Of a stretch of 64,000 nucleotides of DNA, positions 3,997 through 63,973 are shown piece after piece. The translations under genes were made by a program, and so were the position numbers. Origin of the DNA: Gillisia sp. Hel_I_86 (GTDB taxonomy: Bacteria > Bacteroidota > Bacteroidia > Flavobacteriales > Flavobacteriaceae); the NCBI RefSeq assembly GCF_007827275.1, contig NZ_VISE01000001.1, positions 2,170,001 to 2,234,000 on the forward strand. Direction: 5' to 3'. Below the pieces are notes generated by a model. That model ran no database searches. It was not told the DNA's origin and saw only the letters and a list, made by a program, of their open reading frames with translations. Every line of letters starts with the position of its first letter. Position 1 is the stretch's first letter.

Positions 3997-4040
3997 TTTT
4001 AAAGTATTAATTGTTAAGTGTTAATGGTTTGCGTTATTTG

Positions 4041-48740: not shown

Positions 48741-49094
48741 ATGATTCCCACCTTTGAATTTTCTAAAAATGTTGTTGGGTTTTTGATAGATTCCGATGTG
48801 AATTCAAAATTAATTGAAGAAATCCATGCAGCAATCAATGATCGATTGCAGGAGAATGAAACCATCAATTTATTTATCGAAATTAAGCCAGGAAACAATA
48901 TTTCCTTTTCGGCACTTATAAAAGATCTTAAATTTAAGACGCAACATGCAAGTCGGTTTAAAAAGATCGCTGTGGTAACAGACATACATTGGTTTCAGAA
49001 TGCAATGGAAATCAAAGACTTGATAATGAATGCGGAAGTAAAAGGCTTTGAGCATATATACAGGTTAAAAGCGATGAATTGGATTGCCGAATAA
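48741..49094 (+). CDS. SpoIIAA-like (STAS fold) protein, paralogue 2
   Basis: A 117-residue paralogue of the gene at 46604-46957: FEFSKNVVGFLIDSDVNSKLIEEIHAAI, INLFIEIKPGNNISFSALIKDLKF and FKKIAVVTDIHWFQNAMEIKDLI align along the whole length. The two were adjacent before the IS and repeat separated them. Function unknown; possible regulatory or membrane-associated STAS role. Confidence 0.82.
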   Translation: MIPTFEFSKNVVGFLIDSDVNSKLIEEIHAAINDRLQENETINLFIEIKPGNNISFSALIKDLKFKTQHASRFKKIAVVTDIHWFQNAMEIKDLIMNAEVKGFEHIYRLKAMNWIAE

Positions 49095-49219: not shown

Positions 49220-49292
<73 letters not shown>

Positions 49293-49303
49293 CTAGTAAA
49301 TTC

Positions 49304-49335
49304 AAGGCTTCACAGAAATGTGAGGCCTTTTTTTA
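49304..49335 (+). terminator. Terminator after tRNA-fMet
   Basis: Stem AAGGCTTCACA with TGTGAGGCCTT (one G-T pair, GAAA tetraloop) followed by seven Ts. Confidence 0.88.
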
Positions 49336-49342
49336 TGTGCTG

Positions 49343-49363
49343 GGTACAACATAGGTACAACAT
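49343..49363. repeat. Tandem GGTACAACAT, possible integrase-binding sites
   Basis: Two copies of GGTACAACAT separated by one base, about 50 bases beyond the tRNA 3' end. Short direct repeats at this place are typical of tyrosine-integrase arm or core-proximal sites. Inference only. Confidence 0.4.
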
Positions 49364-49465
49364 TTTACTATTTTTCGTTAAGCCATTTAAAATTCTATTG
49401 TTTGATATGTTTTAGAAGTAAATTCTATTAAACAAAGCTGTAACAGCTATATAACAGCTTCTGAT

Positions 49466-49549
49466 GTCTCATAAAACGTTCCTTTTATGAGACTTTAGAA
49501 GGTTTTGGTATAGAGCTTGAACAATAGGACTATGTGCCGTTTTATGACA
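49466..49549 (+). other. res-like inverted-repeat array, left copy
   Basis: A 28-bp site (49466-49493) with perfect 11-bp half-sites GTCTCATAAAA and TTTTATGAGAC around a 6-base centre. After 35 bases a second, weaker site begins, ending in TTTTATGACA (49540-49549). This fits subsite I and II of a serine-resolvase res site. The rest of the gap to 49711 is A+T rich with no convincing gene. Confidence 0.5.
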
Positions 49550-49711
49550 TATACAGCCTGTCACCTACTTTTTTTAATTTCTTTAAAACAAATTAGAAAT
49601 ATTACATATCCATTTATAAAAGTAACAAGAAATAGTCAAATTAAATTTATTCCTCATAATATCAAGAATAATATTTTTTTAGTAAATTGTCATCTTTATA
49701 AGACTTTTTAA

Positions 49712-50419
49712 ATGACATTAACCATTCCTCTACTTGCCGGAACACTTGCGTCAATGCTTCATGTTATTTCTGGACCCGATCACCTGGCAGCAGTTACCCC
49801 TTTAGTCATTGAAACTAAACGAAAAGCATGGAAAATAGGTTTGTTTTGGGGTTTAGGACACTTAGTAGGAATGCTTTTAATTGGTGTTTTGTTCTTATTA
49901 TTCAAGGAATATATTCCAGTCGAGAGTATTTCAAAATATAGTGAGCAGTTAGTAGCTATTGTCTTGATTGGAGTTGGGTTTTGGGCATTCTATCGTATTT
50001 TTAATGAGCAAAAAAAACATCAACATCCTCATGTTCATAATGAAGGCGAAAACTATGTTCATATACATGCGCATGAGCATAGTCATAATGAGGGTCATAA
50101 ACATGTGCACGATAAAATTGTAAAACAAAATGTTCTTTCCTCTTTTGGAATTGGCTTTTTACATGGATTAGCGGGCGTTGCGCATTTCCTGTTGTTGTTA
50201 CCCGTATTAGGTTTTGAAAATAATTTAGAAGGATTACAATACATTATCGGCTTTGCAATAGGTACTGTTTTAGCAATGTCTGTATATGCATTGATTTTAG
50301 GGAAGTTAACATCGCATTCAAAGCATCAACACAATGATAATTTTTTTAAAGGAATTCGTTTTGCTGGAGGGCTATTTGCAATAGTTATTGGCTTCTATTG
50401 GTTGTATCTAACCTTTTAG
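49712..50419 (+). CDS. UreH/NicO-like nickel permease
   Basis: A 235-residue membrane protein with six predicted helices. The first helix has the metal-binding motif HVISGPDHLAAVTP, and a cytoplasmic or periplasmic loop is extremely His-rich (about residues 107-136: HQHPHVHNEGENYVHIHAH and following). The fifth helix has GIGFLHGLAGVAHFLLLLP. This matches UreH-type nickel importers. Position next to the hydrogenase operon implies Ni supply for the active site. It converges with the NHL gene, overlapping by 12 bases. Confidence 0.85.
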   Translation: MTLTIPLLAGTLASMLHVISGPDHLAAVTPLVIETKRKAWKIGLFWGLGHLVGMLLIGVLFLLFKEYIPVESISKYSEQLVAIVLIGVGFWAFYRIFNEQKKHQHPHVHNEGENYVHIHAHEHSHNEGHKHVHDKIVKQNVLSSFGIGFLHGLAGVAHFLLLLPVLGFENNLEGLQYIIGFAIGTVLAMSVYALILGKLTSHSKHQHNDNFFKGIRFAGGLFAIVIGFYWLYLTF

Positions 50420-51502
50420 TTCACAGATTACAAGTCTGTGATTTCCGGTGTCCGCTATGAACAATGTATCACCGGCAGTGGTAATTGAAAATGGCCAATA
50501 AATAGCACTTTTAGTACCGTGCATATTCCCATTAAAATCGCTGCTCGTTTTAAAATCTTCTCTGCCTATTACTGCTTTCGCAAAAGGATTATTGGTATTA
50601 GGAATTTCATCAAATTTTAAAATTCTACTATTTCCTGTATCGTTTACTAAAATACCATCTCTATAAAAGCAAGCATCGTAGGTCCAATTTAAAGTATTCG
50701 CTTCTGGTGCTAAACTAAATTGATTTTGACCACAAGCATCAAAATTATCTTGACCAATAATAACATCAGCAGGTTTTGAAAATGCATCATCTTTATTATT
50801 CCATACTAACACACGATAGAATTGGGTATCAGCAACGGCCATTTGACCTTTGTCATTTATTTTAACTGAATATGGCCATATCGGTTCATCATTATTATAA
50901 TCTCGAGTTGTAAAGGTTGGCTTTCCGATTACTTTGTCAGCAGCTGTATAATTTTCAGAGGGAATATCATTATAAAATAGGATGCGTCGATTGCCAGTAT
51001 CGGCAATCCAAAGGCTTTTACCATCTGAAAACAATCCATACGGCCAATTGAGCGTATGCGCAGTGGGATCGTTTCCTATACCCTTTACATTAGGCAAATT
51101 AGAGTCGAAATCTGGCTGCCCAAGAACTACATCTGCTGGTTGCGCATTTGAAGTAGGAATAGCATGCCATATAAGCACTCTATGATTCCAGGCATCTGCA
51201 ACTATTAATTGTTCTCCATCACTCCAAAGACCAGAAGGATATTGTAATGAAGTTGCTGTCACTTCACCTCCAGAATTTCGTCCACTATCCACTACCTCTA
51301 TTTGACCTAAAATAACATCGGGTTCTTTAAATTCTGTTGTAGGAATTGTATTCCAAATGAATACTCTATTTTGTCCCGTATCTGATACAAAGAGTTTGTT
51401 TTTTGCAACAAAAACACCTCTAGGTGCTAAGAAAGACCTTTGTTCAGAACCTCTAAACAACCTTCCATTTGTCACTTGATCTCCTAATGTTTTATAATCC
51501 AT
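50408..51502 (-). CDS. NHL-repeat beta-propeller protein
   Basis: A 364-residue protein with about six repeats of the form LxxPxGLxxDGxxLxVADxxNHRVLIW followed by PADVVLGQxxF (for example SDTGQNRVFIWNTIP, ADAWNHRVLIWHAIP, ADTGNRRILFYNDIP, NDTGNSRILKF, ADTGNHRLVICEL). No signal peptide, so it should be cytosolic like the hydrogenase. Last gene of the operon, 3 bases after hypE. I recall NHL-repeat genes in group 2a hydrogenase clusters elsewhere; a scaffold or assembly role is inference. Confidence 0.85.
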   Translation of the reverse strand: MDYKTLGDQVTNGRLFRGSEQRSFLAPRGVFVAKNKLFVSDTGQNRVFIWNTIPTTEFKEPDVILGQIEVVDSGRNSGGEVTATSLQYPSGLWSDGEQLIVADAWNHRVLIWHAIPTSNAQPADVVLGQPDFDSNLPNVKGIGNDPTAHTLNWPYGLFSDGKSLWIADTGNRRILFYNDIPSENYTAADKVIGKPTFTTRDYNNDEPIWPYSVKINDKGQMAVADTQFYRVLVWNNKDDAFSKPADVIIGQDNFDACGQNQFSLAPEANTLNWTYDACFYRDGILVNDTGNSRILKFDEIPNTNNPFAKAVIGREDFKTSSDFNGNMHGTKSAIYWPFSITTAGDTLFIADTGNHRLVICELKG

Positions 51503-51505
51503 GAG

Positions 51506-52564
51506 TTAGCAGATTCTAGGTAATTGTTCTCCTGGTAACATGCTTACCACACGTTTACCTCCAATCGCACTTTCCATGATAACCTGTCTCGGATGTTCTT
51601 CAGTAGCGGAACCAATTATTTTAGCGTGCTTCCCATTTTCATCTTTTTGAAGCATTTCTAAAAAATCAACAGCAATCGACTCATCTACAAAAGCAATGAA
51701 AAGTCCTTCATTTGCTACATAAATAGGGTCTAAACCTAACAATTCGCATGCACTAGATACTTGATTATCAATTGGCAAATCTCTTTGAGTAATATCGAAT
51801 CCTAAATTAATAGATTGGGCAGTTTCTTTCAGTACAGTTGCTATTCCACCTCGGGTTGGATCAGTAAGTAAATGAATGTGTTCGCCAAAAGTATCGAGTA
51901 ATGATTTAATAGTATGGTTAAGATGTATCGTATCACTTAAAATTTCAGAGTCAAATTCAAGCCCTTCTCTAACCGACATAATCGCCATACCATGAGATGC
52001 AATATTACCACTCACAATAATTTTATCTCCTACTTTTATGTTTTTTGATGAGATTTTAGCCTTCGAATGAATGCTTCCAATACCCGAAGTATTAATGAAT
52101 ATTTTATCTCCTTTTCCCTTTTCAACCACTTTAGTATCACCCGTTACTACTTGAACTCCTGCTTCTTCACAAGCACCTTTTATAGCGACCAATATTTTCC
52201 AAAACTCCGTAACTTTTAATCCTTCTTCTATGATAAAACTAAGAGATAAATACTTAGGGATAGCCCCGCACATCGCGAGGTCATTAACAGTTCCATTTAC
52301 AGCTAATTCTCCAATATTTCCACCAGGAAAGAAAATAGGCGACACTAAAAAACTATCGGTTGAAAATGCCATTTTTCCCTCTAATTCGAAGATAGCACCA
52401 TCGTGCCGTTCATCAAGAATAGGATTACTTAGTAAATCAAAAACACCACTATCTAATAATTTGTTCGTAAGTACCCCTCCACTACCGTGACCCAAGTTTA
52501 TAACATCAAAGTCCAATTTAGGCATAGGACATTGCAGTTGCATTCGTATTTTTTTATCTGACAT
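51506..52564 (-). CDS. hypE: Carbamoyl dehydratase HypE
   Basis: A 352-residue PurM/AIR-synthase-like enzyme that dehydrates the carbamoyl group on its own C-terminal cysteine to a thiocyanate, the source of the CN ligands of the NiFe centre. The N-terminal GHGSGG, the ATP-binding TDSFLVSP and the exact C-terminus PRIC are present. Works with HypF (carbamoyl donor) and HypC-HypD (acceptor). Confidence 0.97.
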   Translation of the reverse strand: MSDKKIRMQLQCPMPKLDFDVINLGHGSGGVLTNKLLDSGVFDLLSNPILDERHDGAIFELEGKMAFSTDSFLVSPIFFPGGNIGELAVNGTVNDLAMCGAIPKYLSLSFIIEEGLKVTEFWKILVAIKGACEEAGVQVVTGDTKVVEKGKGDKIFINTSGIGSIHSKAKISSKNIKVGDKIIVSGNIASHGMAIMSVREGLEFDSEILSDTIHLNHTIKSLLDTFGEHIHLLTDPTRGGIATVLKETAQSINLGFDITQRDLPIDNQVSSACELLGLDPIYVANEGLFIAFVDESIAVDFLEMLQKDENGKHAKIIGSATEEHPRQVIMESAIGGKRVVSMLPGEQLPRIC

Positions 52565-52585
52565 TAAATAATTTCGATTTTAACA

Positions 52586-53680
52586 CTAGGCCTCTACAAG
52601 CCCAGAAAAGTGATAGTATGCAGCACAAGCTCCTTCACTACTCACCATTGGTGCACCCAAAGGATTTGTAGGCTTACATTTTTTACCAAACTGAGAACAT
52701 TCAAAAGGTTTCTTTAATCCTTTCATTATTTGACCTGAAATACAATCTGGGTTTTCTGGTGCTTCAGGAATTTCAATTTTGAATTTCCTATTAGCATCAA
52801 AATCTGCATATTCTGGTCTGACTTGATATCCACTCTCAGGGATTTCACCTATACCACGCCATATTTGGTTTTTAATTTCAAACACTTTATGAATCATTTT
52901 TTGTGCTTCAGGATTCCCTTCCTCTTTAACAATTCTTGAATATTGATTTTCTACTTGTGCCTTACTCCCTTCAAGTTGCTTCAACACCATTAAAATACCT
53001 TGTAAAACATCTAACGGTTCAAAACCAGTCACTACAATTGGGACTTTATAAGTAGCGGAAAGAGGGTGGTATTCGGCATTCCCCATAATAGTACATACAT
53101 GTCCTGCTGCTAAAAAACCATCTATCTTACTTTCTTCATCATCAATAACGGCTTTAATTGCCGGAGGCACTAAAACATGAGACGCTAGAATAGAATAGTT
53201 CTTAAGTTCTTTACGATGCGCATGAATAACTGAAAGTGCATTTGCTGGAGCAGTTGTTTCAAAACCTACCGCAAAAAAAACGATTTCTTTATCAGGATTA
53301 TCCTCTGCTATTCTCACTGCTTCAAGCGGAGAATATAGAATACGAATATCCGCGCCCTCGGCTTTTGCCTCGAGTAAATTCTTTTTAGAACCAGGTACAC
53401 GTAACATATCCCCAAAGGAACATAGAATCACATTTTCTTCTAGTGCTAAATGAATGGCTTTATCTATAATATTTAAAGGTGTTACACATACTGGACATCC
53501 AGGACCGTGAATCATTGTCACTTCTTTTGGTAGCATATCGATGATACCATTTTTAACAAGACTATGCGTTTGTCCGCCACAAACCTCCATTATGGACCAA
53601 GGTTGTGTTACTGTTTTTTTTATTTCTTCAAGATACGCTTTCGCAACTTCTGGATCGCGATATTCAGACATATACTTCAT
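52586..53680 (-). CDS. hypD: Hydrogenase formation protein HypD
   Basis: A 364-residue Fe-S scaffold on which the Fe(CN)2CO unit is built with HypC. Conserved motifs: MEVCGGQTHSLVKNGI, IHGPGCPVCVTP, the FGDMLRVPGS loop, AVGFETTAPA, and the C-terminal cysteines of the 4Fe-4S cluster (KPFECSQFGKKCKPTNPLGAPMVSSEGACAAYY). The start lies 2 bases after the hypC stop. Confidence 0.97.
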   Translation of the reverse strand: MKYMSEYRDPEVAKAYLEEIKKTVTQPWSIMEVCGGQTHSLVKNGIIDMLPKEVTMIHGPGCPVCVTPLNIIDKAIHLALEENVILCSFGDMLRVPGSKKNLLEAKAEGADIRILYSPLEAVRIAEDNPDKEIVFFAVGFETTAPANALSVIHAHRKELKNYSILASHVLVPPAIKAVIDDEESKIDGFLAAGHVCTIMGNAEYHPLSATYKVPIVVTGFEPLDVLQGILMVLKQLEGSKAQVENQYSRIVKEEGNPEAQKMIHKVFEIKNQIWRGIGEIPESGYQVRPEYADFDANRKFKIEIPEAPENPDCISGQIMKGLKKPFECSQFGKKCKPTNPLGAPMVSSEGACAAYYHFSGLVEA

Positions 53681-53682
53681 GA

Positions 53683-53958
53683 CTAGTTCTTTTTAGGTAA
53701 ATATTCGTCTACATCTGTTAACTCCCCAATCTCTCCTAATTCTTCAAGATATTTAAACGTTTTCTGAGCTTCTTCTTCATCAACTTTACTGATGGCAACA
53801 CCTACATGAACCAAGACATAATCATCTATACCTGCATCTGGTAACATCTCTAAACTGGCTTCTTTTGTAATGCCACCAAAAGACACTGTAGCCATTCTTA
53901 CCGCTCCACCATATTGCAATTCAATACTTTTTATTTTTCCTGGGATTGCTAAACACAT
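53683..53958 (-). CDS. hypC: Hydrogenase assembly chaperone HypC
   Basis: A 91-residue OB-fold chaperone with the invariant N-terminal MCLAIPGKI whose Cys2 holds the iron. The rest (DYVLVHVGVAISKVDEEEAQ) is typical. It escorts the Fe(CN)2CO unit from HypD to the large subunit. Confidence 0.96.
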   Translation of the reverse strand: MCLAIPGKIKSIELQYGGAVRMATVSFGGITKEASLEMLPDAGIDDYVLVHVGVAISKVDEEEAQKTFKYLEELGEIGELTDVDEYLPKKN

Positions 53959-53969
53959 AATTCGCTCTT

Positions 53970-56231
53970 TTAATTTTTAATATGTTGATAATACATCAAT
54001 TGTCCAAATGATATATTCTCATCATTCGCAGACAATTTACGATTTATTTTTAAATCAATATTTTCAATAGATGTCATTTTTTCCAATATTGAAATCAGTA
54101 ATGAATTCTGAAAAACACCACCACTACAAGCAACAACAGTTGCATTATATTTTTGGGAGAGTTTTATAACACTTTTAGCCAAAGTATATATAAAACTATA
54201 TGCTAACCTTTCTTTGCAAAACCCTTTGCCATAAGCCTTAACAAGCGCTTCTATTATTAGTTTAGAAGGAACAATATCATAATCAACATTGTACAAAAAA
54301 TCTATATAATAACTCTTTGAATAAGTCATAGCACTATTTTCGAGTAACATTGGAGCTTCTGCTTCAAACGTATTGATATCTTTAATATCTAATGCTGAAG
54401 TTACCGCATCAAACAATCTACCAACTGAAGATGTTTTCAAACTATTGGTTCGAAGCAATTTAGTATATAGATCGAATTCTATTTCAGAAAACTTATCCTT
54501 AATATAACACCTATTTTTTTCTTCAAGGAGGCTCAATAAAGCAATCCGAGGTTCTTGTGCCATTTTATCATTAGCCAACCAATCGTAGTATTCAAAATGG
54601 CTAACACGCTCTATTTTATGATTTTCATAGGTAAAAAACTCTCCACCCCAAATAGCATTGTCATCTCCATAACCCGTACCATCCCAAACCACACCGAGTA
54701 CTCTTTCTTCAGAATCAAATAACTCATACTCGCCTAGCACACTAGCAAAGTGTGCCTTATGATGCTGAATCTCTACCAATTCAGCATTCCATTTTCTTGC
54801 TAATTTGTTACCAATGATACTACTTTGATACGTTGGATGTGCATCAATTAACACCGTTTTTGGCATACAATTAAATACATTCAGCTGCTGATTTATAGTT
54901 TTCTCATACCGTTCAGAAACATCATAACTATTTAAATTCCCGAAATATTGACTCACATATATATGAGCATTAGGAACTAAAGAAAAAGTGCTTTTTAAAT
55001 GTGCTCCCATTGCCAGAATACCTGAAGTATTTTGGATATAATCAGTTAAATAATTTGGAGCATAACCACGCGAACGTCTTAAAATAATTTCTTTTCCTTC
55101 AACAATTTTTACGACCGAATCATCTTGTGGAAATTGAATGGGTAAGTTATGATGTACAAAATAGTCAGCTATTTCTCTTAATTCACTTTGAGCAACTTCA
55201 TTTTCTGAAATTATTGGAGAGCCATGTATATTCCCACTGGTGCATACTATTGGACTCTTTACAACATCCATCAATAATTCCAAAAGAGAAGATGAAGGCA
55301 ATAAAACACCTGTTTGATTTAAACTTGGTGCAATTATTTTTGTTGCAATACGTGTTTCCTTTGTGTTTTCTAGAATGACGATTGGAGCAACCGTACTTGT
55401 TAGCAACTCTTCTTCCTGTCCTGTTAATTGAAAATCCTTTTGAACACTTTCAATAGTATCGTATAAAACTGCAAATGCTTTATTTGGTCGTTTCTTTTTT
55501 TGTCTTAGTTGTTCTATAACTTCGGGATTAGTGGCGTCACAACACAACACATATCCATTTGTATTTTTTATCGCAATAATTCTTCCTTCAGCAATAAGCT
55601 CAGCAGTTTTTTGTAGAATCTTTTGTTTATCAATAGTAACCTTACTATCATCAGCTTCAACTAACTCTAATCGAATACCACAATCATTACAGCCATTAGT
55701 TTGCGAATGAAACCTCCGATTGCTTGGATCTTTATATTCTGTTTCGCAAGTAGTGCACATTTCAAAATTACTCAGTGATGTGTGCACTCTTTCAAAAGGA
55801 AATCGGGTTGTTATCGCATATCTAGGGCCGCAGTTTACACAGGTGGTAAAAGGATAACCGTAACGTCTATTTTCAACATCTTTTATTTCCTTTTTACATT
55901 CATTACAAATAGCAAAATCCGGTGTAAGTGGTATGTTTATTTTTTGATTTGTTGCTGAAGCGACAATACTAAAATCTTTAAAAGTTTGAGTTGATACTTC
56001 TTCAAATTTATGATTACTAATAATTGAAACTGGTGGAGGGTTTTTTAATACTGTTTCCAAAAATATAATCGCCTTTTCTGTTGAAGTAGTCATTTTAACA
56101 ATAACACCTTCTGCATCATTAGACACGCATCCATTAATATTCAATTGTTGTGCAAGTTTAAATACAAAAGGACGAAAACCTACTCCTTGAACACGTCCTT
56201 TTATTTGTATTTTAAATGTCTTTGCACTCAA
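53970..56231 (-). CDS. hypF: Carbamoyltransferase HypF
   Basis: A 753-residue, four-domain enzyme that makes thiocarbamate on HypE from carbamoyl phosphate. Domains: acylphosphatase (RVQGVGFRPFVF, residues about 10-90), two zinc fingers (CNECKKEI, CVNCGPRY, CTTCETEY, CNDCG; 110-190), YrdC-like (200-385) and a Kae1-like C-terminal domain (HHKAHFASVLGEY; ACSGGVFQN). The apparent start is TTG, 3 bases after the hypB stop; there is no nearby ATG, so translation is probably coupled. Confidence 0.95.
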   Translation of the reverse strand: MSAKTFKIQIKGRVQGVGFRPFVFKLAQQLNINGCVSNDAEGVIVKMTTSTEKAIIFLETVLKNPPPVSIISNHKFEEVSTQTFKDFSIVASATNQKINIPLTPDFAICNECKKEIKDVENRRYGYPFTTCVNCGPRYAITTRFPFERVHTSLSNFEMCTTCETEYKDPSNRRFHSQTNGCNDCGIRLELVEADDSKVTIDKQKILQKTAELIAEGRIIAIKNTNGYVLCCDATNPEVIEQLRQKKKRPNKAFAVLYDTIESVQKDFQLTGQEEELLTSTVAPIVILENTKETRIATKIIAPSLNQTGVLLPSSSLLELLMDVVKSPIVCTSGNIHGSPIISENEVAQSELREIADYFVHHNLPIQFPQDDSVVKIVEGKEIILRRSRGYAPNYLTDYIQNTSGILAMGAHLKSTFSLVPNAHIYVSQYFGNLNSYDVSERYEKTINQQLNVFNCMPKTVLIDAHPTYQSSIIGNKLARKWNAELVEIQHHKAHFASVLGEYELFDSEERVLGVVWDGTGYGDDNAIWGGEFFTYENHKIERVSHFEYYDWLANDKMAQEPRIALLSLLEEKNRCYIKDKFSEIEFDLYTKLLRTNSLKTSSVGRLFDAVTSALDIKDINTFEAEAPMLLENSAMTYSKSYYIDFLYNVDYDIVPSKLIIEALVKAYGKGFCKERLAYSFIYTLAKSVIKLSQKYNATVVACSGGVFQNSLLISILEKMTSIENIDLKINRKLSANDENISFGQLMYYQHIKN

Positions 56232-56234
56232 TGA

Positions 56235-56936
56235 TTATGCTTCTTTTTTAGCATTCACTTTTTCTACTAACCAATCGCACCAAGCATCCATTCCTTCACC
56301 ATTAGTAGACGAAATTTGTATCACTTCAAGTTCGTGATTTACCTCGTGTGCATCTTTTGTTACGGCTTCTACCGAAAAAGGAACATAAGGCAACAAGTCT
56401 GATTTTGAAACGAGCATCATATCACTGGTTAAAAACATTCTTGGATATTTTTTTGGTTTATCATCACCTTCGGTTGTTGCCATAAGGGTTACTCGAAAAT
56501 CCTCACCTAAATCAAAAGATGCAGGACAAACAAGGTTCCCTACATTTTCTATGAATAATAAATCTATATCTTCTAGCTGATACTCAGGCAATACCTGATG
56601 AATCATCTGTGCTTCCAAATGACAAATTCCTCCAGTAACAATTTGTAATGCTTGAATGCCTGTTTCACGTATGCGTTCTGCATCACGCTCTGTCTCTAGG
56701 TCTCCTACCATTACCGCCATTTTCAACTTATCTTTCAATCGTCGAGCAGTTTCTTGCATTAATGTTGTTTTACCACTTCCTGCGGAAGAAGTAATATTTA
56801 TCAAAAGCGTCTTGGTTTTTGCCATTTCTTTTTTGATAATATCTGCAACAAAATCATTGGCTTTCAATAAATTAATATTGGTGTTTTCACACTGTACCGT
56901 ACCGCGAGCGGCTTTTGTGGATTTATCTATACTCAT
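56235..56936 (-). CDS. hypB: Hydrogenase nickel incorporation GTPase HypB
   Basis: A 233-residue SIMIBI GTPase delivering nickel with HypA. P-loop SSAGSGKTTL, GDLETERDAERI, GGICHLEAQMI with metal-binding Cys/His, and the base-recognition SKSDLLPY are present. It lacks the N-terminal CxxCGC motif and the poly-His stretch of some HypB, so nickel storage may rest with the permease loop. ATG 56936 is preferred over a TTG 13 codons upstream. Confidence 0.95.
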   Translation of the reverse strand: MSIDKSTKAARGTVQCENTNINLLKANDFVADIIKKEMAKTKTLLINITSSAGSGKTTLMQETARRLKDKLKMAVMVGDLETERDAERIRETGIQALQIVTGGICHLEAQMIHQVLPEYQLEDIDLLFIENVGNLVCPASFDLGEDFRVTLMATTEGDDKPKKYPRMFLTSDMMLVSKSDLLPYVPFSVEAVTKDAHEVNHELEVIQISSTNGEGMDAWCDWLVEKVNAKKEA

Positions 56937-56964
56937 ATTTTCTAATTTTAAATTCTGTTGATTT

Positions 56965-57312
56965 TTAATCAGCAAATTCTACTTTATGAATTAACATTTC
57001 TTCACCTTGAATAATATTTTTACTAGGCTTTTGGCAACTATCACATAGAAAGCGATACTTTTTTACATCTGTAATATGATCACAACTTTCACATTGAATT
57101 TTCAATTCTACCATCTCTATATGAAATTTTACATTCTGATATTTTGGATTCATCATGTGAGAAGCTTCATATGCATTATATAAAAGACGTGGTTCTATAT
57201 TAGAGAGTATTCCTACTTTCACATAGATACCCGTCATCGTATTGAGTTTCTCTGCATCAAACTCTTGTTCTAGAGTTCTCATAATACCATTTATTATCGA
57301 AGTTTCGTGCAT
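56965..57312 (-). CDS. hypA: Hydrogenase nickel chaperone HypA
   Basis: A 115-residue nickel-binding protein. It begins MHETSI, with the Ni-ligand His2, and has the zinc-binding CESC and CDSC pairs (residues about 74-94). Slightly longer than average but complete. Acts with HypB on the large subunit. Confidence 0.96.
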   Translation of the reverse strand: MHETSIINGIMRTLEQEFDAEKLNTMTGIYVKVGILSNIEPRLLYNAYEASHMMNPKYQNVKFHIEMVELKIQCESCDHITDVKKYRFLCDSCQKPSKNIIQGEEMLIHKVEFAD

Positions 57313-57314
57313 TG

Positions 57315-58802
57315 TTAGTTTAAAATTGTCTTTAAATTCTTAAGTTGATTTAAATGTTGATTTGCGCGTTCTTTTAAATCTTCATCGTCTATAATTTCAG
57401 TAATAGAAGTTGCTTTTTCTACCATTTGATTATACTTTTTCTTTTCGGCTTTCTCATTCTCATTATGCATTAACCAGTATAATTCCAATTGATTTAAAAG
57501 TGTTAATGCTCTTTCAAAAGGATATTCATTTATAGTACGCACCGTAAGTGCATCTTCAAACAAACCAAATGCTTTATCTAAATTGTTATGTAATTTTGCT
57601 TCAGGGAAATTCATGAGTGCCGTTGCATAATTATGACTTGCCATCGCATATTCATATGGATATTGCTCTTTTGTAAAAAAACCTAAAACTTCCTTAAAAG
57701 AAGATGCACAAAAGGCTGTCCAAATAGGTTTTTCTTCCGATGATACGGGGATTTCAGAATAAATAAGAGCTAAGCTATGATGGATTTCTGCAAATTTCTG
57801 AGGATGCGTATCACGTTTGAAAACTTTTAAAGTGTCTTGAAAGGCGTTAATCGCTGGCTTGTAATACTGCGGGCTTCCGTTTTTAGACCATATATATAGA
57901 AGCGTTGCTTTACGTAATCCAGCTTCACCCAGAAATTCAGGAATATCTGCTTCTTTAAAATATAAAATAGCTTTATTTATGTAGTTCTTAGAATCTATAA
58001 AATCTTCCTGAAAATTGGCGATTTCCGAAGCATCAACTAGGATTAACCCTGCATTCACTTTTAATTCTCTTTCTTCATAAAAAGTAATACTAGATTGCTG
58101 TAATTCTTGAATTTCTGCTAAACTATCTAGGTTATATGGTACTTTTAATTGCGCCATCAGCACGGACGCCAGCTGAGTGTTAATAGCATTTTTCGATTCT
58201 GAAGATATGGCTCTTGGTATAGCTAATCTTAAGACTTTTTCAGCTTCAGCATACGCATTCGTATCTAATAAAAAATTTACAAAATGTTTAATAGTGAATA
58301 ATCGTAGTTCATCATTAGGAGCATTTGCAATGGCTTCCGCATATAAAGTCTTAAGTGCAATAACGTCACGTCGTAATTTAATTGTGCCATATTGCTCAAT
58401 GATACACCGGTTGTGTAAAGAACCCAATTCCACAAAAGCACACATATCTTCAGTAATATCGTACCCAAACTGTAGATGTGTCGCAATTAATAAATGATTA
58501 TAAACCGGATTTTCTTCTGAAATAAATTCAAACGCTTTTTGGTGATTTCCTAATTTATAAAAGATGATTCCCAAAAGATTCTCTTTAGAAAACGATAGTT
58601 CAGGAAATAGATACGGAGGTTCAGTGTCATTCCAATCTAAAGAAGCGCTAATCAAATTATCAGAAATGACCAGTATTTTATTTGAACTTTGTGCTAAATT
58701 TTCATTCGTAACAATTTCTACAAGTTCATTCAATCTATCGATAGAGTGAATAATACTTTTTATAATCGTTTCGTTATTAGTTTTTGTTAAAATTGTAAGC
58801 AC
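57315..58802 (-). CDS. TPR-repeat protein in the hydrogenase operon
   Basis: A 495-residue cytosolic protein built of helical repeats (for example LRLFTIKHFVNFLLDTNAYAEAEKVLRLA; YEYAMASHNYATALMNFPEA; LDKAFGLFEDALTVRTINEYPFERALTLLNQLELYW). No signal peptide. The start appears to be GTG at 58802, overlapping the preceding gene's end by 26 bases. It lies between the small unknown genes and hypA. TPR proteins usually mediate assembly; a role in hydrogenase maturation or docking is inferred from place only. Confidence 0.8.
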   Translation of the reverse strand: MLTILTKTNNETIIKSIIHSIDRLNELVEIVTNENLAQSSNKILVISDNLISASLDWNDTEPPYLFPELSFSKENLLGIIFYKLGNHQKAFEFISEENPVYNHLLIATHLQFGYDITEDMCAFVELGSLHNRCIIEQYGTIKLRRDVIALKTLYAEAIANAPNDELRLFTIKHFVNFLLDTNAYAEAEKVLRLAIPRAISSESKNAINTQLASVLMAQLKVPYNLDSLAEIQELQQSSITFYEERELKVNAGLILVDASEIANFQEDFIDSKNYINKAILYFKEADIPEFLGEAGLRKATLLYIWSKNGSPQYYKPAINAFQDTLKVFKRDTHPQKFAEIHHSLALIYSEIPVSSEEKPIWTAFCASSFKEVLGFFTKEQYPYEYAMASHNYATALMNFPEAKLHNNLDKAFGLFEDALTVRTINEYPFERALTLLNQLELYWLMHNENEKAEKKKYNQMVEKATSITEIIDDEDLKERANQHLNQLKNLKTILN

Positions 58803-59043
58803 TTTTATCTACTTTTTGTGTTCCTCTTATATCTTTTGCAGCTGTCTTTTGCATATTAAGTGCATAAATTTCAGCCAATCTTTTTGATCTATAATCTCCT
58901 ATTTTTCGTATCAAGACTTGATTTGGATCTTTAATGTTTACAAATACCAATGAAACTTCCCAACGCCCTTTAATTTCTTCAATCTTAGTTCGCACTTCTG
59001 CATCTAATAACCAAGCGTCTTTAGGGTCTTTTCTTTTAGGCAT
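58777..59043 (-). CDS. Small unknown protein in the hydrogenase operon (88 residues)
   Basis: A basic 88-residue protein beginning MPKRKDPKDAWLLDAEVRTKIEEIKGRWEVSLVFV and ending in Lys/Asn-rich sequence. No motif I recognise. ATG 59043 overlaps the stop of the 106-residue gene by one base (TGATG), so the pair is coupled; the TTG just before it is not needed. Conserved position inside the operon suggests a hydrogenase role. Confidence 0.7.
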   Translation of the reverse strand: MPKRKDPKDAWLLDAEVRTKIEEIKGRWEVSLVFVNIKDPNQVLIRKIGDYRSKRLAEIYALNMQKTAAKDIRGTQKVDKSAYNFNKN

Positions 59044-59363
59044 CAAATTGTTATTTTAATGAGATTCGTTCTTTCTACAATTTCATACTGGAGTATTCTA
59101 TCTGTTGTGTCTAAATCATTATCTATCAATATCTCCCGTATCGCTAATGTTCTATCGCCTTTTAAGTTTCTAGATTTTAATAAAAACTGTGTAGGCTCAT
59201 GAACCTTTACAAACCATTGACTACTAACAGGAGTAATTAAAAGTTGTTTTTGTTTTACTACATAAGTAACATATGCATAATGTATGCTTTCAAATACCCG
59301 TTCTACGAGCGCCGCGGTTAAATAAACGTGCGAAGATTTGAGTATAACATTATCTTCTTCCAT
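59043..59363 (-). CDS. Small unknown protein in the hydrogenase operon (106 residues)
   Basis: A 106-residue protein (MEEDNVILKSSHVYLTAALVERVFESIHYAYVTYVVKQKQLLITPVSSQWFVKVHEPTQF...) with a mixed alpha/beta pattern and no cysteines, hence not an Fe-S carrier. Its start shares a base with the protease stop (TAATG). Between protease and TPR gene; function unknown. Confidence 0.72.
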   Translation of the reverse strand: MEEDNVILKSSHVYLTAALVERVFESIHYAYVTYVVKQKQLLITPVSSQWFVKVHEPTQFLLKSRNLKGDRTLAIREILIDNDLDTTDRILQYEIVERTNLIKITI

Positions 59364-59839
59364 TATGCCTTTACAAATTTTAAATCTTCCAAAATATGCT
59401 GTACTACTTTATCTCCAGCTTGCTTTACCTCCTCACTAAGTACTGTGTCTAATTTAGTGTTTTCTACGGCAATTAAATAGACTTGTATATCTTTTGGATA
59501 TTCATCACCAAGTATTTTTTTAGAATACGATAGTGCTTGATCCCATTTCATACCATGTAAAAATACCATAGGGTCATCTTGTGGCGCTCTTAACACTTCT
59601 TCTGCAGGCACTTTAAATAAAGTACCAATAGGTTCATTGGAATTTACTACTGCATCTACCATCAAAATTTTAGTATGCCCTTTAAGACCAAAAAGTACTT
59701 CAAAGGCGGCCGTACCCATATCAAAGATATTTATCGTATCATTATCTCCGATAATTTTTTGCAACTCTTCAATCACGTACATTCCTATACCATCATCACT
59801 TCTAACTGGGTTTCCGAAACCCATTATTGCTGTCTTCAT
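59363..59839 (-). CDS. Hydrogenase maturation endopeptidase (HupW/HyaD type)
   Basis: A 158-residue protease that clips the large subunit after nickel insertion. The N-terminal GFGNPVRSDDGIGMYVIEEL contains the conserved Asp that senses nickel; FDMGTAAFEVL and DAV follow as in HybD/HyaD proteins. Encoded 80 bases downstream of its substrate. Confidence 0.94.
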   Translation of the reverse strand: MKTAIMGFGNPVRSDDGIGMYVIEELQKIIGDNDTINIFDMGTAAFEVLFGLKGHTKILMVDAVVNSNEPIGTLFKVPAEEVLRAPQDDPMVFLHGMKWDQALSYSKKILGDEYPKDIQVYLIAVENTKLDTVLSEEVKQAGDKVVQHILEDLKFVKA

Positions 59840-59920
59840 TCTTATTCTTTATATTAAACTAAAAAACTTTCCCGAAGACACCCTCGGGAAAGCTTATATA
59901 AATAATTGATTTATATCTAT

Positions 59921-61513
59921 TTATAATTTGAATCGAGATAGTTCAACTCCAGATTTTTGATCGTGCGCATGCACAGTACAAACCAAACAGGAATCAAATG
60001 ATCTTGCAACAATACCAACTTCTACAGGATCACTAGGATCTTCGATATCGATACCTGTAAGTGCACTTTCAATTGGTCCTGGGTTTCCTTGACCATCATT
60101 AGGCCCAACGTTCCATGTAGTTGGAGCCATTACTTGATAGTTTTTAATAACACCATCTTTAATTTCTATCCAGTGAGCTAATGCACCACGAGCTGCTTCT
60201 GTTGCTCCGAATCCTTTTCCGTCCTTTTCAACTGGCTTGATATAGAATTCTCCATCGAGGTCAATTTCTGAAAGCCATTGCTCTATAAACTTATATATTC
60301 TTGGAGCTTCATGAACTCTCGCTAAAACACGTGTAAATACACTAGGTCCTAGTTTTTTCATGATATCTCCAAATAAAGGATCTCTAATTTGATGTTCCTT
60401 ATTATTAGGGTTTGCATTCATTATAACACGGGCCAAAGGGCCTGTTTCTGCAGCATGTCCATCATACCTTGGTGACTTTGACCAACTATATTGTCCATCA
60501 AAATCTGTATGGTGTAATGGTTGTGATTTAGCAGGAGTGGGTAATGGTTCTTCCCAAGGGTGTAATCCATCTTCTTGATTATCATACCAAGAATGTGAAA
60601 CATCTTCTTTTACTTTAAGATGATCAAACTCATGATAATTTTCTCCATCGAAAAATCCACTAGAACTAATCAAGGCATCATTTCTACCTTCAATAGTTGG
60701 ATTATTATATCGGTCTTTATGTAAGTATGTTCCTGTTGCCAAAAATTTACCTACTCCTTGACCAAATTTATCTAAGCCAAATTCGATTCCTGCTCTAATA
60801 AGCAATCCTAAATCACTATTTTTATGAGACTCATTTTCATCAACCCATGCTAACATATCGTCCCATGATTTGATTTCCATATAGCGCTCGATCGAACAAC
60901 CTAACCATACTGGCTCTAGCCAATCATTTTTAAATTGTGCCAAAATAGCATGTGCTCGTGTAATATCTTTTAAGGTCGGCGCACACATAACTCCACCTGG
61001 AACCATATAGCTCGAGTGTGGCCACTGCCCACCAAATAAAGCATAGATTTGAACAGGCAATCCACTTGCCGTTAACCCTATTTGAAATGTTTCGCCGACA
61101 TAAGCCGACCATCTTTTAACCACTTCTTTATACAAAGGCTGATTAGCATATTTCTTATTCGCCAAATCTGTTGCGAAAATGGCATAAAACCAACGTGGAA
61201 TACTCTGTAATGTTTCAGAGGCTTGTCCAATAGCTCTCAATAATAGGGCATTTGGAGATAATTTTGTTCCCCAAGCGGTATCTAAAGCAGATGATGCACA
61301 ATACAAATGTGACCCTCCACATATTCCGCAAATACGCGGTGTTACTATAAGACCAGATTGTGGATCTTTACCTTCCATTATTTTCTCAAAACCTCTAAAC
61401 ATTGCTGCCTGGGTATGAGCACGAGTTACTTTTCCGTTATCGATATAAACTTTAACATCTAAATCTCCTTCAACACGTCCTACGGGTGATATATTTAATT
61501 CTTTTACTGACAT
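59921..61513 (-). CDS. hupL: [NiFe] hydrogenase large subunit, group 2a-like
   Basis: A 530-residue catalytic subunit. The N-terminal L1 motif is RICGICGGSHLYCASSALDTAWG (Cys62, Cys65) and the C-terminal L2 motif is FDSCLVCTVH (Cys509, Cys512), together giving the four nickel ligands. Cleavage after His515 would remove a 15-residue tail (AHDQKSGVELSRFKL). L2 has Ser where most families have Pro (DPC). The sequence style resembles cyanobacterial HupL and mycobacterial HucL. Cytosolic, oxidises H2. Confidence 0.95.
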   Translation of the reverse strand: MSVKELNISPVGRVEGDLDVKVYIDNGKVTRAHTQAAMFRGFEKIMEGKDPQSGLIVTPRICGICGGSHLYCASSALDTAWGTKLSPNALLLRAIGQASETLQSIPRWFYAIFATDLANKKYANQPLYKEVVKRWSAYVGETFQIGLTASGLPVQIYALFGGQWPHSSYMVPGGVMCAPTLKDITRAHAILAQFKNDWLEPVWLGCSIERYMEIKSWDDMLAWVDENESHKNSDLGLLIRAGIEFGLDKFGQGVGKFLATGTYLHKDRYNNPTIEGRNDALISSSGFFDGENYHEFDHLKVKEDVSHSWYDNQEDGLHPWEEPLPTPAKSQPLHHTDFDGQYSWSKSPRYDGHAAETGPLARVIMNANPNNKEHQIRDPLFGDIMKKLGPSVFTRVLARVHEAPRIYKFIEQWLSEIDLDGEFYIKPVEKDGKGFGATEAARGALAHWIEIKDGVIKNYQVMAPTTWNVGPNDGQGNPGPIESALTGIDIEDPSDPVEVGIVARSFDSCLVCTVHAHDQKSGVELSRFKL

Positions 61514-61533
61514 TTTGTAGTTAGTTTAATTAC

Positions 61534-62493
61534 TTATTTAGAAGTTTCAGTTACACGTTTATTTGTAGGCATAACCTTCTGGAAACCTGCTTCCATATAA
61601 TACGCCAATTTTGTTCTTCCTGTTGGAACTTCTTTAGGAAAAACTCCTAAATGCTTCATCGTTTTGAACACACTTCCTTTCATTAAATCATTATGTGGAA
61701 ATCCTGGTTCTGTGCATCCTAAGCAAGGATGATTAGAACGTGTTTTACTCGACTGACGATTCCAAAGTATATTATTACAACTTGCTCTAGTCATTGGTCC
61801 ACGACATCCTACTTCGTAGAATAGACATCCACCACGTTTTCCAAAGTTTCCATCGACCTTCTGAGCGAAATTAGTCACGTTAGTACATCCGTCTTGAACG
61901 AAATCTGTAAAAAATGTTTTTGGTCTGTGAAATTCATCTATTAAAACATCACCTATTCTTCCAACAGATATTGCTACGAGTATTTGAGTTATCCAATCAG
62001 GATGCGCTGGGCATCCAGGGATATTTATAACAGGTAAGCCTCCTTTTGAAACGTAGTCGTGACCTAAGAAGCCTCCTTTATTTTTCTTATGAAATTGTAA
62101 ACCAGTTGATTCACTAGGGTTTGGCGCTACAGCGGGAATTCCTCCCCAAGTTGCACAATCTCCAATTGCAACTACATAGCCTGCAACCTTTGATAATTCT
62201 TTAATCCAATCCATCATTGGTCTATCGGCAAAATAATTCATTGTCCCAGTATTATTAGGACCTTTTATTAAGGAACCTTCATATACCAGAATATCCATTT
62301 GAACTTTTCCTGCTAAGATATCTTTTAAAAGATCTTGTACTTGATCTCCAATTTGTAATCCTGTAGTTGGATGCCAAAGAATATTAAGCCCGAAATCTGT
62401 AATAAGTTCTACCACAGTTGGTTCTTCAGCGTTCAAAAAGGACATTGTGTTTCCACTACATGCACCTCCTTGTAACCATAAAACGTTTGCCAT
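61534..62493 (-). CDS. hupS: [NiFe] hydrogenase small subunit, group 2a-like
   Basis: A 319-residue electron-transfer subunit starting MANVLWLQGGACSGNTMSFLNAEEPTV, nearly the same as cyanobacterial HupS from memory. No Tat signal and no membrane anchor, so it is cytosolic. Proximal-cluster ligands are Cys12, Cys113 and Cys161; position 15, usually Cys, is Asn. Others: His189, Cys203, 223, 230, 239, 257 and 260 for the distal and medial clusters. ATG 62493 is chosen; a start 25 codons upstream adds non-homologous residues. First gene of the operon. Confidence 0.95.
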   Translation of the reverse strand: MANVLWLQGGACSGNTMSFLNAEEPTVVELITDFGLNILWHPTTGLQIGDQVQDLLKDILAGKVQMDILVYEGSLIKGPNNTGTMNYFADRPMMDWIKELSKVAGYVVAIGDCATWGGIPAVAPNPSESTGLQFHKKNKGGFLGHDYVSKGGLPVINIPGCPAHPDWITQILVAISVGRIGDVLIDEFHRPKTFFTDFVQDGCTNVTNFAQKVDGNFGKRGGCLFYEVGCRGPMTRASCNNILWNRQSSKTRSNHPCLGCTEPGFPHNDLMKGSVFKTMKHLGVFPKEVPTGRTKLAYYMEAGFQKVMPTNKRVTETSK

Positions 62494-62532
62494 AAAATGT
62501 TGGGTTTTGATTAGATTAAGATTCGAAAATAA

Positions 62533-62540
62533 CAAAAATA
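62533..62540 (-). promoter_or_regulatory. -7 box of the hydrogenase operon
   Basis: On the minus strand TATTTTTG matches TAnnTTTG, about 40 bases upstream of hupS. No -33 element is found at 19 bases, so an activator may be needed. Confidence 0.4.
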
Positions 62541-62579
62541 TTTCTATTTTCAAAATTCGAATAATCAATTTGATAAATT

Positions 62580-62648
62580 AATTGCCAATATTTTATAAAA
62601 AAAAATATATAACGGTAATAATTTCAAAAAACTAAATTTTTGGCAATT
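62580..62648. promoter_or_regulatory. Wide inverted repeat upstream of the hydrogenase promoter
   Basis: AATTGCCAA (62580-62588) and TTGGCAATT (62640-62648) form a perfect 9-bp inverted repeat 51 bases apart, with A/T-rich DNA between. It lies 40-110 bases upstream of the -7 box, a usual site for an activator or a looping repressor. Confidence 0.4.
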
Positions 62649-62730
62649 TATTAGAGAAGTTAGAATAGCTCCAAAAGCCCTAAAAATTAAATATCAGGTA
62701 TTTTACACATAAATCGGTAAACTCTGAATA

Positions 62731-62845
62731 GTTCTATAAAATGGTCGTTTTATGCGACTATAGTAAACGAAAATAGGAGGTAAAGAAACTAAAGTCTCAT
62801 TTTCCGTCTTTTTTAGTAGTATTGTTAATTGACCTTTTATGAGAC
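62731..62845 (+). other. res-like inverted-repeat array, right copy
   Basis: A 28-bp site (62731-62758), GTTCTATAAAA-TGGTCG-TTTTATGCGAC, matches the left site at 21 of 28 positions by my count. After 35 bases comes GTCTCAT (62794), and a further perfect TTTTATGAGAC half-site lies at 62835-62845. Same orientation as the left array. The next 300 bases (to 63144) hold only short palindromes such as TCCCG/CGGGA near 62985. Confidence 0.5.
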
Positions 62846-63144
62846 AAAGTATAGTGGTTCTTAACTCTTTAATCAGCACATTCCCCAGCATTTCGCGAAA
62901 AGCTACATTCCGGAAAAAGAGCTTCACTACATAAGTCTTGGACACAATCCCCAATTTCAGCTTTCCATTCCGTTAACCCTTCCCGCTACGCTGGAACGGG
63001 ACACTTCATTCCTGAGCCAAAATCGTGAATCAAGTCCGCTTTTCATTGGAAAGTCATCACTTCGATTTTCTTAACAGTATTTTCGGCGCGGTCTTCTTGA
63101 GCCCTTACTCGAAAATCCTTAAAAACCGAACCGCTGCCTTACAC

Positions 63145-63479
63145 ATTTTAAGGGGTTTATAATGGATAGAGCCTTCAATGTTTTTCGGGTCGTCGAAAAA
63201 CAGGCACGACATAACCAATTCTAAATTAAACACAGCTGCTTATATCGCTTAACTGCCGGTACGCTCAAACTCAACTGCGTTTAAAAGAATTGCTAATGCC
63301 CTTATGGAACTTGTCAAGACTATACAAGTTTTAGTGAAAAATAAGGTTTCTACTTCCTTGAAATTCCAAGGAATTTACTACGTCGCAAACACACCTGATT
63401 TTATCCCAAAAAGTCTGGACAAAACCCACTCTATCCATTGTGCGGTGCACAGAAGAAAAGAACAAACACCCCTTAAAAT
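63145..63479. ncRNA. Structured non-coding region upstream of ssb (RNA or single-strand DNA element)
   Basis: A 12-bp pairing (63145-63156 with 63468-63479) and an 11-bp pairing (63161-63171 with 63429-63439) close a 335-base region. Inside are hairpins at 63180-63201 (GTTTTTCG/CGAAAAAC), 63308-63330 (AACTTGT/ACAAGTT), 63354-63373 (TTCCTTG/CAAGGAA) and 63440-63450 (GTGC/GCAC). No convincing reading frame. It could be a structured RNA, an ssb leader or a single-strand origin or promoter of a conjugative element. Confidence 0.4.
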
Positions 63480-63550
63480 TTAATTCAGTTTAAATCAAAT
63501 AGGGGAAATATAAACCAGTCTGTAACAAAGCAGGCACAAATCTTTTTATT

Positions 63551-63895
63551 ATGAGTACTATTAAAAATCACGTACAGTTAATTGGAAACGTTGGACAAGA
63601 GCCAACCATTACGAACCTTGAAAGCGGAAAGAAAGTAGCCCGTTTTTCATTAGCAACAAATGAGTATTACAAGGACAAAGAAGGCAACAAGCAAACGGAC
63701 ACGAATTGGCATACCGTAGTAGCTTGGGGCAAAACTGCCGAAATTGTAGAGAAGTATGTTGTTAAAGGCAAAGAAGTTGGAATATCGGGAAAGCTTAAAA
63801 CCCGAAGTTATACAAATGATGATAACGAACAACGCTATGTTACGGAAGTTGTAGCCGATGAAATTCTATTACTTGGAAGCAAAGACGACAAGTAA
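63551..63895 (+). CDS. ssb: Single-stranded DNA-binding protein (mobile-element type)
   Basis: A 114-residue OB-fold SSB: IKNHVQLIGNVGQEPTITNLESGKKVARFSLATNEYYKDKEGN, TNWHTVVAWGKTAEIVEKYVVKGKEVGISGKL, and a final strand. It stops right after the fold (GSKDDK) and lacks the long linker and acidic DDxPF tip of housekeeping SSB, which recruits replication partners. Short SSBs like this are common on Bacteroidota conjugative elements and plasmids. Confidence 0.92.
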   Translation: MSTIKNHVQLIGNVGQEPTITNLESGKKVARFSLATNEYYKDKEGNKQTDTNWHTVVAWGKTAEIVEKYVVKGKEVGISGKLKTRSYTNDDNEQRYVTEVVADEILLLGSKDDK

Positions 63896-63906
63896 ATCTT
63901 AAAATG

Positions 63907-63944
63907 AAAGAGGGCGTAACAGTCGAAAGATGCGCCCTCTTTTT
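63907..63944 (+). terminator. Terminator after ssb
   Basis: A perfect 10-bp stem (AAAGAGGGCG with CGCCCTCTTT, 16-base loop) leading into five Ts. Confidence 0.9.
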
Positions 63945-63973
63945 CATTATTCACACTTTAAATAAAATGTACA

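Follow-up and report, generated by a model that had tools for sequence, protein, structure and literature searches.

A hydrogenase cassette behind an initiator tRNA gene

The DNA analysed here, referred to below as the window, is a stretch of 64,000 nucleotides (positions 2170001–2234000) from the single-contig genome of Gillisia sp. Hel_I_86 (4,245,106 bases), the focal genome of this study. It contains a complete group 2a-type [NiFe] hydrogenase cassette at window positions 49712–62568, 3′ of an initiator tRNA gene, and the mobile element that surrounds this cassette is the subject of the present analysis. tRNA genes were sought with ARAGORN, and protein families were assigned by NCBIfam cut-offs and Pfam gathering scores; the large subunit HupL was excluded from the NCBIfam scan and was assessed by Pfam and PDB matches. 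The surroundings of hupL were surveyed at 74 named loci (flanks of at most 10 kb) and in 11 further regions of the family (18–40 kb). A first-pass annotation, made from the window alone, had described a complete hydrogenase set in one block behind the initiator tRNA. Both statements hold: the named genes were all found (ARAGORN, NCBIfam, Pfam, PDB), and tRNA-Met(cat), the single tRNA in the window (49220–49293, ARAGORN), precedes the cassette. This tRNA, read by eye, has three G:C pairs beside the anticodon loop and a mismatched 1:72 position, which we take to be the mark of an initiator tRNA. The features of the locus, in window coordinates and with the basis of each assignment, are as follows.

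49220–49293, plus strand: initiator tRNA-Met (cat), the integration target, whose 3′ part is rebuilt by the left end of the element (ARAGORN and sequence)
49251–49296, plus strand: attL core, 46 bp, from the anticodon loop to 3 nt beyond the tRNA (repeat comparison)
49304–49329, plus strand: terminator-like hairpin with a T-run immediately 3′ of the tRNA, on the element side (sequence)
49712–50419, plus strand: membrane protein with a His-rich loop, probable nickel transporter (DsbD_2/NicO-like; NCBIfam, Pfam)
50408–51502, minus strand: NHL-repeat protein, a recurring cassette member (Pfam, neighbourhood survey)
51506–52564, minus strand: hypE (NCBIfam, above cut-off)
52586–53680, minus strand: hypD (NCBIfam, above cut-off)
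53683–53958, minus strand: hypC (NCBIfam, above cut-off)
53970–56231, minus strand: hypF (NCBIfam, above cut-off; Pfam)
56235–56975, minus strand: hypB (NCBIfam, above cut-off)
56965–57312, minus strand: hypA (full-length NCBIfam match at 59.6 bits, below the cut-off of 88.1)
57315–58802, minus strand: 495-residue cassette protein, unmatched in Pfam and NCBIfam (a recurring neighbour of this hydrogenase in Bacteroidota)
58777–59046, minus strand: 89-residue cassette protein of no known family (Pfam, neighbourhood survey, PDB)
59043–59363, minus strand: 106-residue cassette protein of no known family (Pfam, neighbourhood survey, PDB)
59363–59839, minus strand: hydrogenase maturation endopeptidase, HycI/HupD family (Pfam, above gathering score)
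59921–61513, minus strand: hupL, [NiFe] hydrogenase large subunit, group 2a (Huc-like; Pfam, above gathering score; PDB)
61534–62568, minus strand: hupS, small subunit (Pfam, above gathering score; below NCBIfam cut-offs; PDB)
62873–63040, no strand assigned: non-coding block (sequence comparison within the genome)
63551–63895, plus strand: ssb of the mobile element, backbone and not core (Pfam, comparison with sister elements)

HupL and HupS both find their best PDB match in Mycobacterium Huc (7utd, 7uus; E = 3.7e-203 and 1.2e-133), which we take to be the group 2a hydrogenase of Mycobacterium smegmatis, and HupL scores 679 bits against Huc compared with 216 for the next distinct enzyme. HupL carries the motifs RICGIC and DSCLVCTVH and a 15-residue C-terminal tail, and the gene for a HycI-type protease adjoins it. 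The true start of hupS is probably the ATG at 62493, from which the protein begins MANVLWLQ; no leader was seen there by eye. The cassette should encode a group 2a [NiFe] uptake hydrogenase with its own maturation set. What had been called a nickel permease is indeed a membrane transporter-like gene, but only the DsbD_2 cut-off is passed and the matches to Ni/Co transporters are weak; nickel transport by this DsbD_2/NicO-like protein is likely. A tetratricopeptide-repeat (TPR) label for the 495-residue protein is not supported by Pfam. The same gene order is found beside hupL in other Flavobacteriaceae, and the cassette itself is therefore an ordinary operon of this family.

Attachment sites and a shared element in three genera

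The 46-bp attL core recurs exactly at genome positions 2236751, 2313008 and 2476038 within the range compared (2150001–2508000). The first of these, attR (2236751–2236796), is an exact copy of the tRNA 3′ half plus three bases, and beside it lies the gene for a 401-residue tyrosine integrase (genome 2235384–2236589) with Arm-DNA-bind_5, SAM-like and Phage_integrase domains. A second tRNA 3′ end and an integrase, which the first-pass annotation had proposed to look for on the right, are thus both present, the repeat 17.5 kb away. Repeat to repeat, the island occupies genome positions 2219251–2236796 (17,546 bp), from window position 49251 to 2796 bases beyond the window end; the earlier delimitation of the unit at 49293–62845 takes in the cassette but falls short of the whole. 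Its GC content is 34.4%, compared with 37.8% in the left flank. Direct-repeat att sites, one of them within a tRNA gene, are a hallmark of integrative and conjugative elements (ICEs).

The ssb gene reported to follow the cassette is real (Pfam), but it belongs to the mobile element. In another genome of the genus (G005; G and L numbers denote genomes and loci), a related element at the same tRNA has ssb, mob genes and an integrase (84–95% identical) and has no hydrogenase, which is why ssb is counted as element backbone. The right flank is therefore not the ordinary core that had been supposed; it is the remainder of the mobile element followed by further islands. The non-coding block of about 170 bp before ssb (62873–63040) resembles sequences at six further sites of the genome (72–85%), and two of these precede the ssb genes of other ICEs. 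A structured RNA in front of ssb was considered and dropped, as Rfam gave only three sub-threshold matches, taken as chance.

The same element is inserted at the same tRNA in Altibacter lentus (G116) and in the metagenome-assembled genome (MAG) UBA3611 (G298), which represent two other genera. It measures 41,950 bp from att to att in UBA3611 and about 43 kb in Altibacter, and 33.4 kb of the two are 95% identical. The UBA3611 element encodes a BfmA-type mobilisation protein, a MobB-family relaxase, a coupling protein, the TraG ATPase, TraK, TraN, RteC and a helix-turn-helix protein; TraG and the relaxase score above their NCBIfam cut-offs, and TraK, TraN and the coupling protein below. Conjugation genes, another hallmark of an ICE, are thus present in the sister elements. 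In the focal island no open reading frame for a relaxase, a coupling protein or type IV secretion was found between ssb and the integrase. Its left part stops inside mobC, its right part starts inside rteC, and the joint is the 8-bp sequence TTTTCTTC, which in UBA3611 occurs on both sides of the corresponding segment; compared with UBA3611, about 24.5 kb (mobC to rteC) is absent. From this joint at an 8-bp repeat it follows that the transfer genes were lost while the integrase, att sites and cargo were kept. The tra genes sought to the right by the first-pass annotation accordingly exist as a full set in the sister elements, but the focal copy has lost them by deletion.

Over window positions 49251–63956 (14,706 bp) the focal and UBA3611 copies differ at a single position, 62596. 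Against Altibacter there are zero differences from the tRNA to 50755, followed by a diverged stretch and then by one difference up to window coordinate 64846. In the diverged stretch (50756–59456) the two are 65–85% identical in 500-bp windows, with identical DNA on both sides, and Altibacter has an extra open reading frame of 288 residues there (L056); we interpret it as a different allele brought in by homologous replacement in one of the two lineages. hupL is nucleotide-identical in all three genomes. In contrast, rpoB is only 78.6% identical between the focal genome and UBA3611, 78.7% between the focal genome and Altibacter, and 82.7% between Altibacter and UBA3611, and the syntenic core of the left flank aligns between the focal genome and the other two genera in pieces that are 64–71% identical, with one 167-bp piece at 75%.

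Phylogenetic trees give the same picture. The rpoB comparison covered the focal genome and eight relatives, nine of the 16 genomes in the genus sample; G403 lay outside the rpoB search, and G011, with a split rpoB, was omitted from comparison and tree. The HupL tree was built from 15 sequences of the family and 17 of 18 loci picked out of the 74 (L127 was dropped at the motif filter), and eight of its 24 inner branches are well supported. In the rpoB tree the focal genome lies within its own genus, and Altibacter and UBA3611 fall in a separate clade with G128 and G132; in the HupL tree the three stand together as identical rows. The comparison of HupL with species trees proposed at first pass thus ends in disagreement between HupL and rpoB. 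Contamination as the source of the 14.7-kb near-identity was rejected, since the focal chromosome was assembled as a single contig, the Altibacter lentus genome comes from a named strain, and the left neighbours in both other genomes are diverged but syntenic core. Together the sequences point to a very recent movement of the hydrogenase element between three genera of Flavobacteriaceae.

We therefore read the hydrogenase block as cargo of an ICE of the Bacteroidetes Tra type that moved recently among three genera and whose focal copy was reduced by deletion at an 8-bp repeat, with a probability of about 0.93. The proposal that H2 oxidation is a transferable trait, gained in one step with its own maturation system, is on these sequence comparisons largely right. 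On this reading the site recombined by the tyrosine integrase is the 46-bp sequence within the 3′ half of the initiator tRNA gene; the element rebuilds the tRNA and brings its own terminator-like hairpin beside it. The complete form, of about 42 kb, consists of att, the hydrogenase cassette, ssb, mobilisation genes, Tra secretion genes, an RteC-type regulator, the integrase and att, and is predicted to excise and to pass by conjugation. Either before or after arrival, the repeat TTTTCTTC recombined in the lineage of the focal copy, removing about 24.5 kb and leaving a 17.5-kb island with a full-length integrase, both att sites and the entire cassette. With nickel imported by the putative transporter, the predicted enzyme would be active, take up H2 and pass its electrons to the respiratory chain, and would thus feed aerobic respiration.

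Distribution, the apparently empty site and alternative explanations

The genus sample comprised 16 genomes (11 of them at least 90% complete) and the family sample 397. Uptake hydrogenases are patchy across the genomes searched. HupL is present in one of the 16 genus genomes (one of the 11 more complete ones) and in none of the eight relatives compared by rpoB; in the family it occurs in 15 of the 397. The tRNA region was matched in 15 of the 16 genus genomes. A second att-like copy (45–80 bp, 94–100% identical, on the same contig and strand) is present in G002, G005, G007, G008, G009 and G015, and in all five right ends that were read (G002, G005, G007, G009 and G015) it is abutted by a tyrosine integrase related to the focal one (41–84% identical). 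The genes after the tRNA vary among most of the 12 relatives read, the first ones being common to G007, G008 and G009. The initiator tRNA gene is an integration hotspot in this genus.

Two observations concern the neighbourhood of the site. The exact 46-bp core at genome 2476038–2476083 (L140) has a tRNA-Arg gene at a distance of 3.6 kb and another integrase at 2.2 kb. To the left of the initiator tRNA, a transposase-like gene (window 47217–48611, by eye) is flanked by related genes of 117 residues (46604–46957 and 48741–49094), and a 464-residue gene at genome 2367391 shares its start.

An empty site in a related genome had been named at first pass as support for insertion, and one apparently exists in G006, the closest by rpoB (95.0%) of the eight relatives compared and sister to the focal genome (support 98/97). 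There the tRNA and a following hairpin are uninterrupted, and no integrase or mob match was found at the site. This hairpin differs from the focal hairpin at 49304–49329 and is the one found after the focal att copies at 2313007 and 2361693; from its presence there, the hairpin proper to the 3′ side of the tRNA has ended up at distances of 94 and 142 kb from it. In G002, G005, G007 and G009 the genes found to the right in G006 are matched by counterparts beyond the last att copy, and in G001 by counterparts to the right of the tRNA. A separate gene, located to the right of the focal copy at 2361693, is matched on the right-hand side of the site in G005, G007 and G009.

Several findings weigh against this account of a recently transferred ICE. 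The right-hand genes of G006 gave no match in G015 and, as far as position 2508000, a single weak partial match in the focal genome; the focal right side is therefore rearranged, and the match to an empty site consequently rests on the tRNA and the hairpin. At the integrase end, the focal island has just 80–92% identity with UBA3611 and a lower identity with Altibacter, which makes the element a mosaic. The ssb and relaxase of this ICE stand beside hupL at just two of the 74 named loci (in the genera Altibacter and UBA3611) and in none of the 11 further family regions, and UBA3611 is a MAG. Weak integrase or mobC matches (21–49%) near hupL in G231/L076, G354, L077 and L128 hint at other mobile contexts, and a plasmid search found related HupL on Bacteroidota plasmids of Runella (78%) and Hymenobacter (75%).

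The alternative that survives best concerns the present state of the focal island, which may be a mobilisable element able to hitch-hike on two complete resident ICEs and not a dead remnant. Two further elements of the same kind, with tra genes 70–94% identical to those of UBA3611, reside in the focal genome at about 1.14 and 1.85 Mb and could act as helpers; the integrase is full length, the att sites are exact and the sequence upstream of the cut mobC has been retained. Against it, mobC itself is cut, no origin of transfer was identified in the island, and the deleted form did not turn up a second time in the 15 family HupL genomes or at the 74 named loci, within the flanks available. We consider continued mobilisation possible, though on balance unlikely.

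It is far less probable that the cassette was captured into an older island at this tRNA by transposition or homologous recombination, with no conjugative vehicle of its own. The related ICE of G005 at the same tRNA lacks the hydrogenase, and the allele that diverges between Altibacter and the focal genome at 50756–59456, set between identical flanks, indicates that homologous recombination acts on the cassette in one of the two. However, three genera have the whole unit from tRNA to ssb, in two of these the transfer genes are complete, and the present vehicle is for that reason the ICE; capture describes how the ICE first acquired its cargo. Least tenable of all, with hardly any probability left to it, is vertical inheritance of an ancestral chromosomal trait that lies beside the tRNA by chance and was lost elsewhere: other Flavobacteriaceae genera do have the cassette, its genes in the same order, and the flanks examined there mostly lack the genes of this ICE, but this reading was rejected on the presence of the cassette in a single genome of the genus, the apparently empty site in G006, the contrast between identical hupL and diverged rpoB, and the perfect att repeats with their integrase.

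A tandem carbon monoxide dehydrogenase island and comparison with known systems

A second island follows in tandem at genome 2236797–2313053 (76 kb, beginning 2797 bases right of the window end; L009:1–6386). Its CoxL carries the motif AYRCSFR, which we take to be that of form I CO dehydrogenase, and has the large chain of carbon monoxide dehydrogenase (8uem) as its best PDB match. The island also holds CoxM-, CoxS-, CoxG- and CoxD-type proteins, molybdenum-cofactor synthesis genes, a sulfite-oxidase-like protein, TauE and a metallo-beta-lactamase/rhodanese protein. The Arm domain of a truncated integrase and an IS1-like transposase (L010:4447–4878 and 3674–4563) are found close to its right att copy, the third in the series. 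CoxL occurs in two of the 16 genus genomes, the focal one and G013 (66% complete), which share 16.4 kb at 98.7% DNA identity; in the family, 24 of the 397 genomes give CoxL matches at E <= 1e-150, and 11 of these, the focal one included, are at least 91% identical. Further to the right, a degenerate att-like copy (88%, genome 2361693–2361741) is followed by the hairpin of the G006 type and then by a gene conserved in G005, G007 and G009; the span 2313054–2361692 may be an older island. Contig C13 of G065 (L063, L259–L263) carries a CoxL 95% identical and a HupL 93% identical to the focal ones about 70 kb apart, without the genes of this ICE near hupL.

The tandem with the CO dehydrogenase island points to a tRNA-linked stacking of trace-gas traits. 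We give even odds to the broader idea that the initiator-tRNA site serves flavobacteria as a docking port for the oxidation of atmospheric trace gases, at which H2 and CO elements arrived separately, were stacked in tandem and both still circulate. If true, aerobic trace-gas use would be an epidemic, element-borne trait and not a property of lineages.

Among known elements, the Bacteroidetes conjugative transposons share the TraG, TraK, TraN, RteC and MobB families with the sister elements. Classic members carry antibiotic resistance, whereas the cargo of the focal and sister elements is a respiratory energy module. Huc (7utd, 7uus) is by far the best solved relative of both hydrogenase subunits. 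The focal cassette differs from it in that a HucM-like scaffold, sought among the 106-, 89- and 495-residue proteins, was not recognised, these three having no convincing PDB match (best E-values 0.15–2.5).

The transfer of hydrogenase cassettes is a known phenomenon, given the cases from Cupriavidus, Alteromonas, Acidithiobacillus, Sphingopyxis and Hydrogenovibrio. The hydrogenase clusters on CMGI-2 and CMGI-3 of Cupriavidus metallidurans CH34 (Tn4371 family) resemble the focal type in having an integrase, conjugation genes and a hydrogenase with hyp genes, and are said to contain every gene required to grow on H2 and CO2; they differ in their proteobacterial family, their hox-type hydrogenases and the insertion sequence (IS) elements proposed to have brought these in, and the accessible part of the report shows no such block in another genus (PMC2864759). 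The closest precedent for the transfer is the hydrogenase–metal resistance cassette of Alteromonas, near-identical in a plasmid and in chromosomes of different species and described as transferable across genus barriers in one step; it belongs to Gammaproteobacteria and to a plasmid and a chromosomal flexible island, with no integrase–att unit at a tRNA described for it in the available sections (PMC5217437). Island GIAcaTY.4 of Acidithiobacillus caldus likewise carries a [NiFe] hydrogenase of group 2 together with a hyp set of its own (hupSL-hypFCDEAB); it is proteobacterial and, in the excerpts at hand, is not called conjugative or shown in near-identical copies in other genera (PMC3826726). 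For Hydrogenovibrio SP-41, hydrogen conversion has been proposed as horizontally gained in an island; the portion available describes neither a conjugative element nor att sites, nor near-identical copies outside the genus (PMC6501319).

Sphingopyxis alaskensis RB2256, as described in the accessible text, carries, on a mobilisable replicon, a group 2a hydrogenase together with hyp genes and a gene for an NHL-repeat protein, and is reported to consume H2 to sub-atmospheric levels (PMC10305171); unlike the focal case, this proteobacterial replicon is a plasmid, its HupL is 56% identical to the focal one and its gene order is different. Full-text literature searches, with most subscription papers outside their coverage, returned no report of a hydrogenase on an ICE of Bacteroidota or Flavobacteria. 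The ICE offers a concrete vehicle by which a single conjugation event could deliver an enzyme jointly with its maturation set, and the 14.7-kb near-identity, despite an rpoB difference of more than 20%, clearly marks it as an energy module transferred very recently. What appears to be new is the carrier, a Bacteroidetes Tra-type ICE at an initiator tRNA, together with the single difference per 14.7 kb between genera and the tandem CO island.

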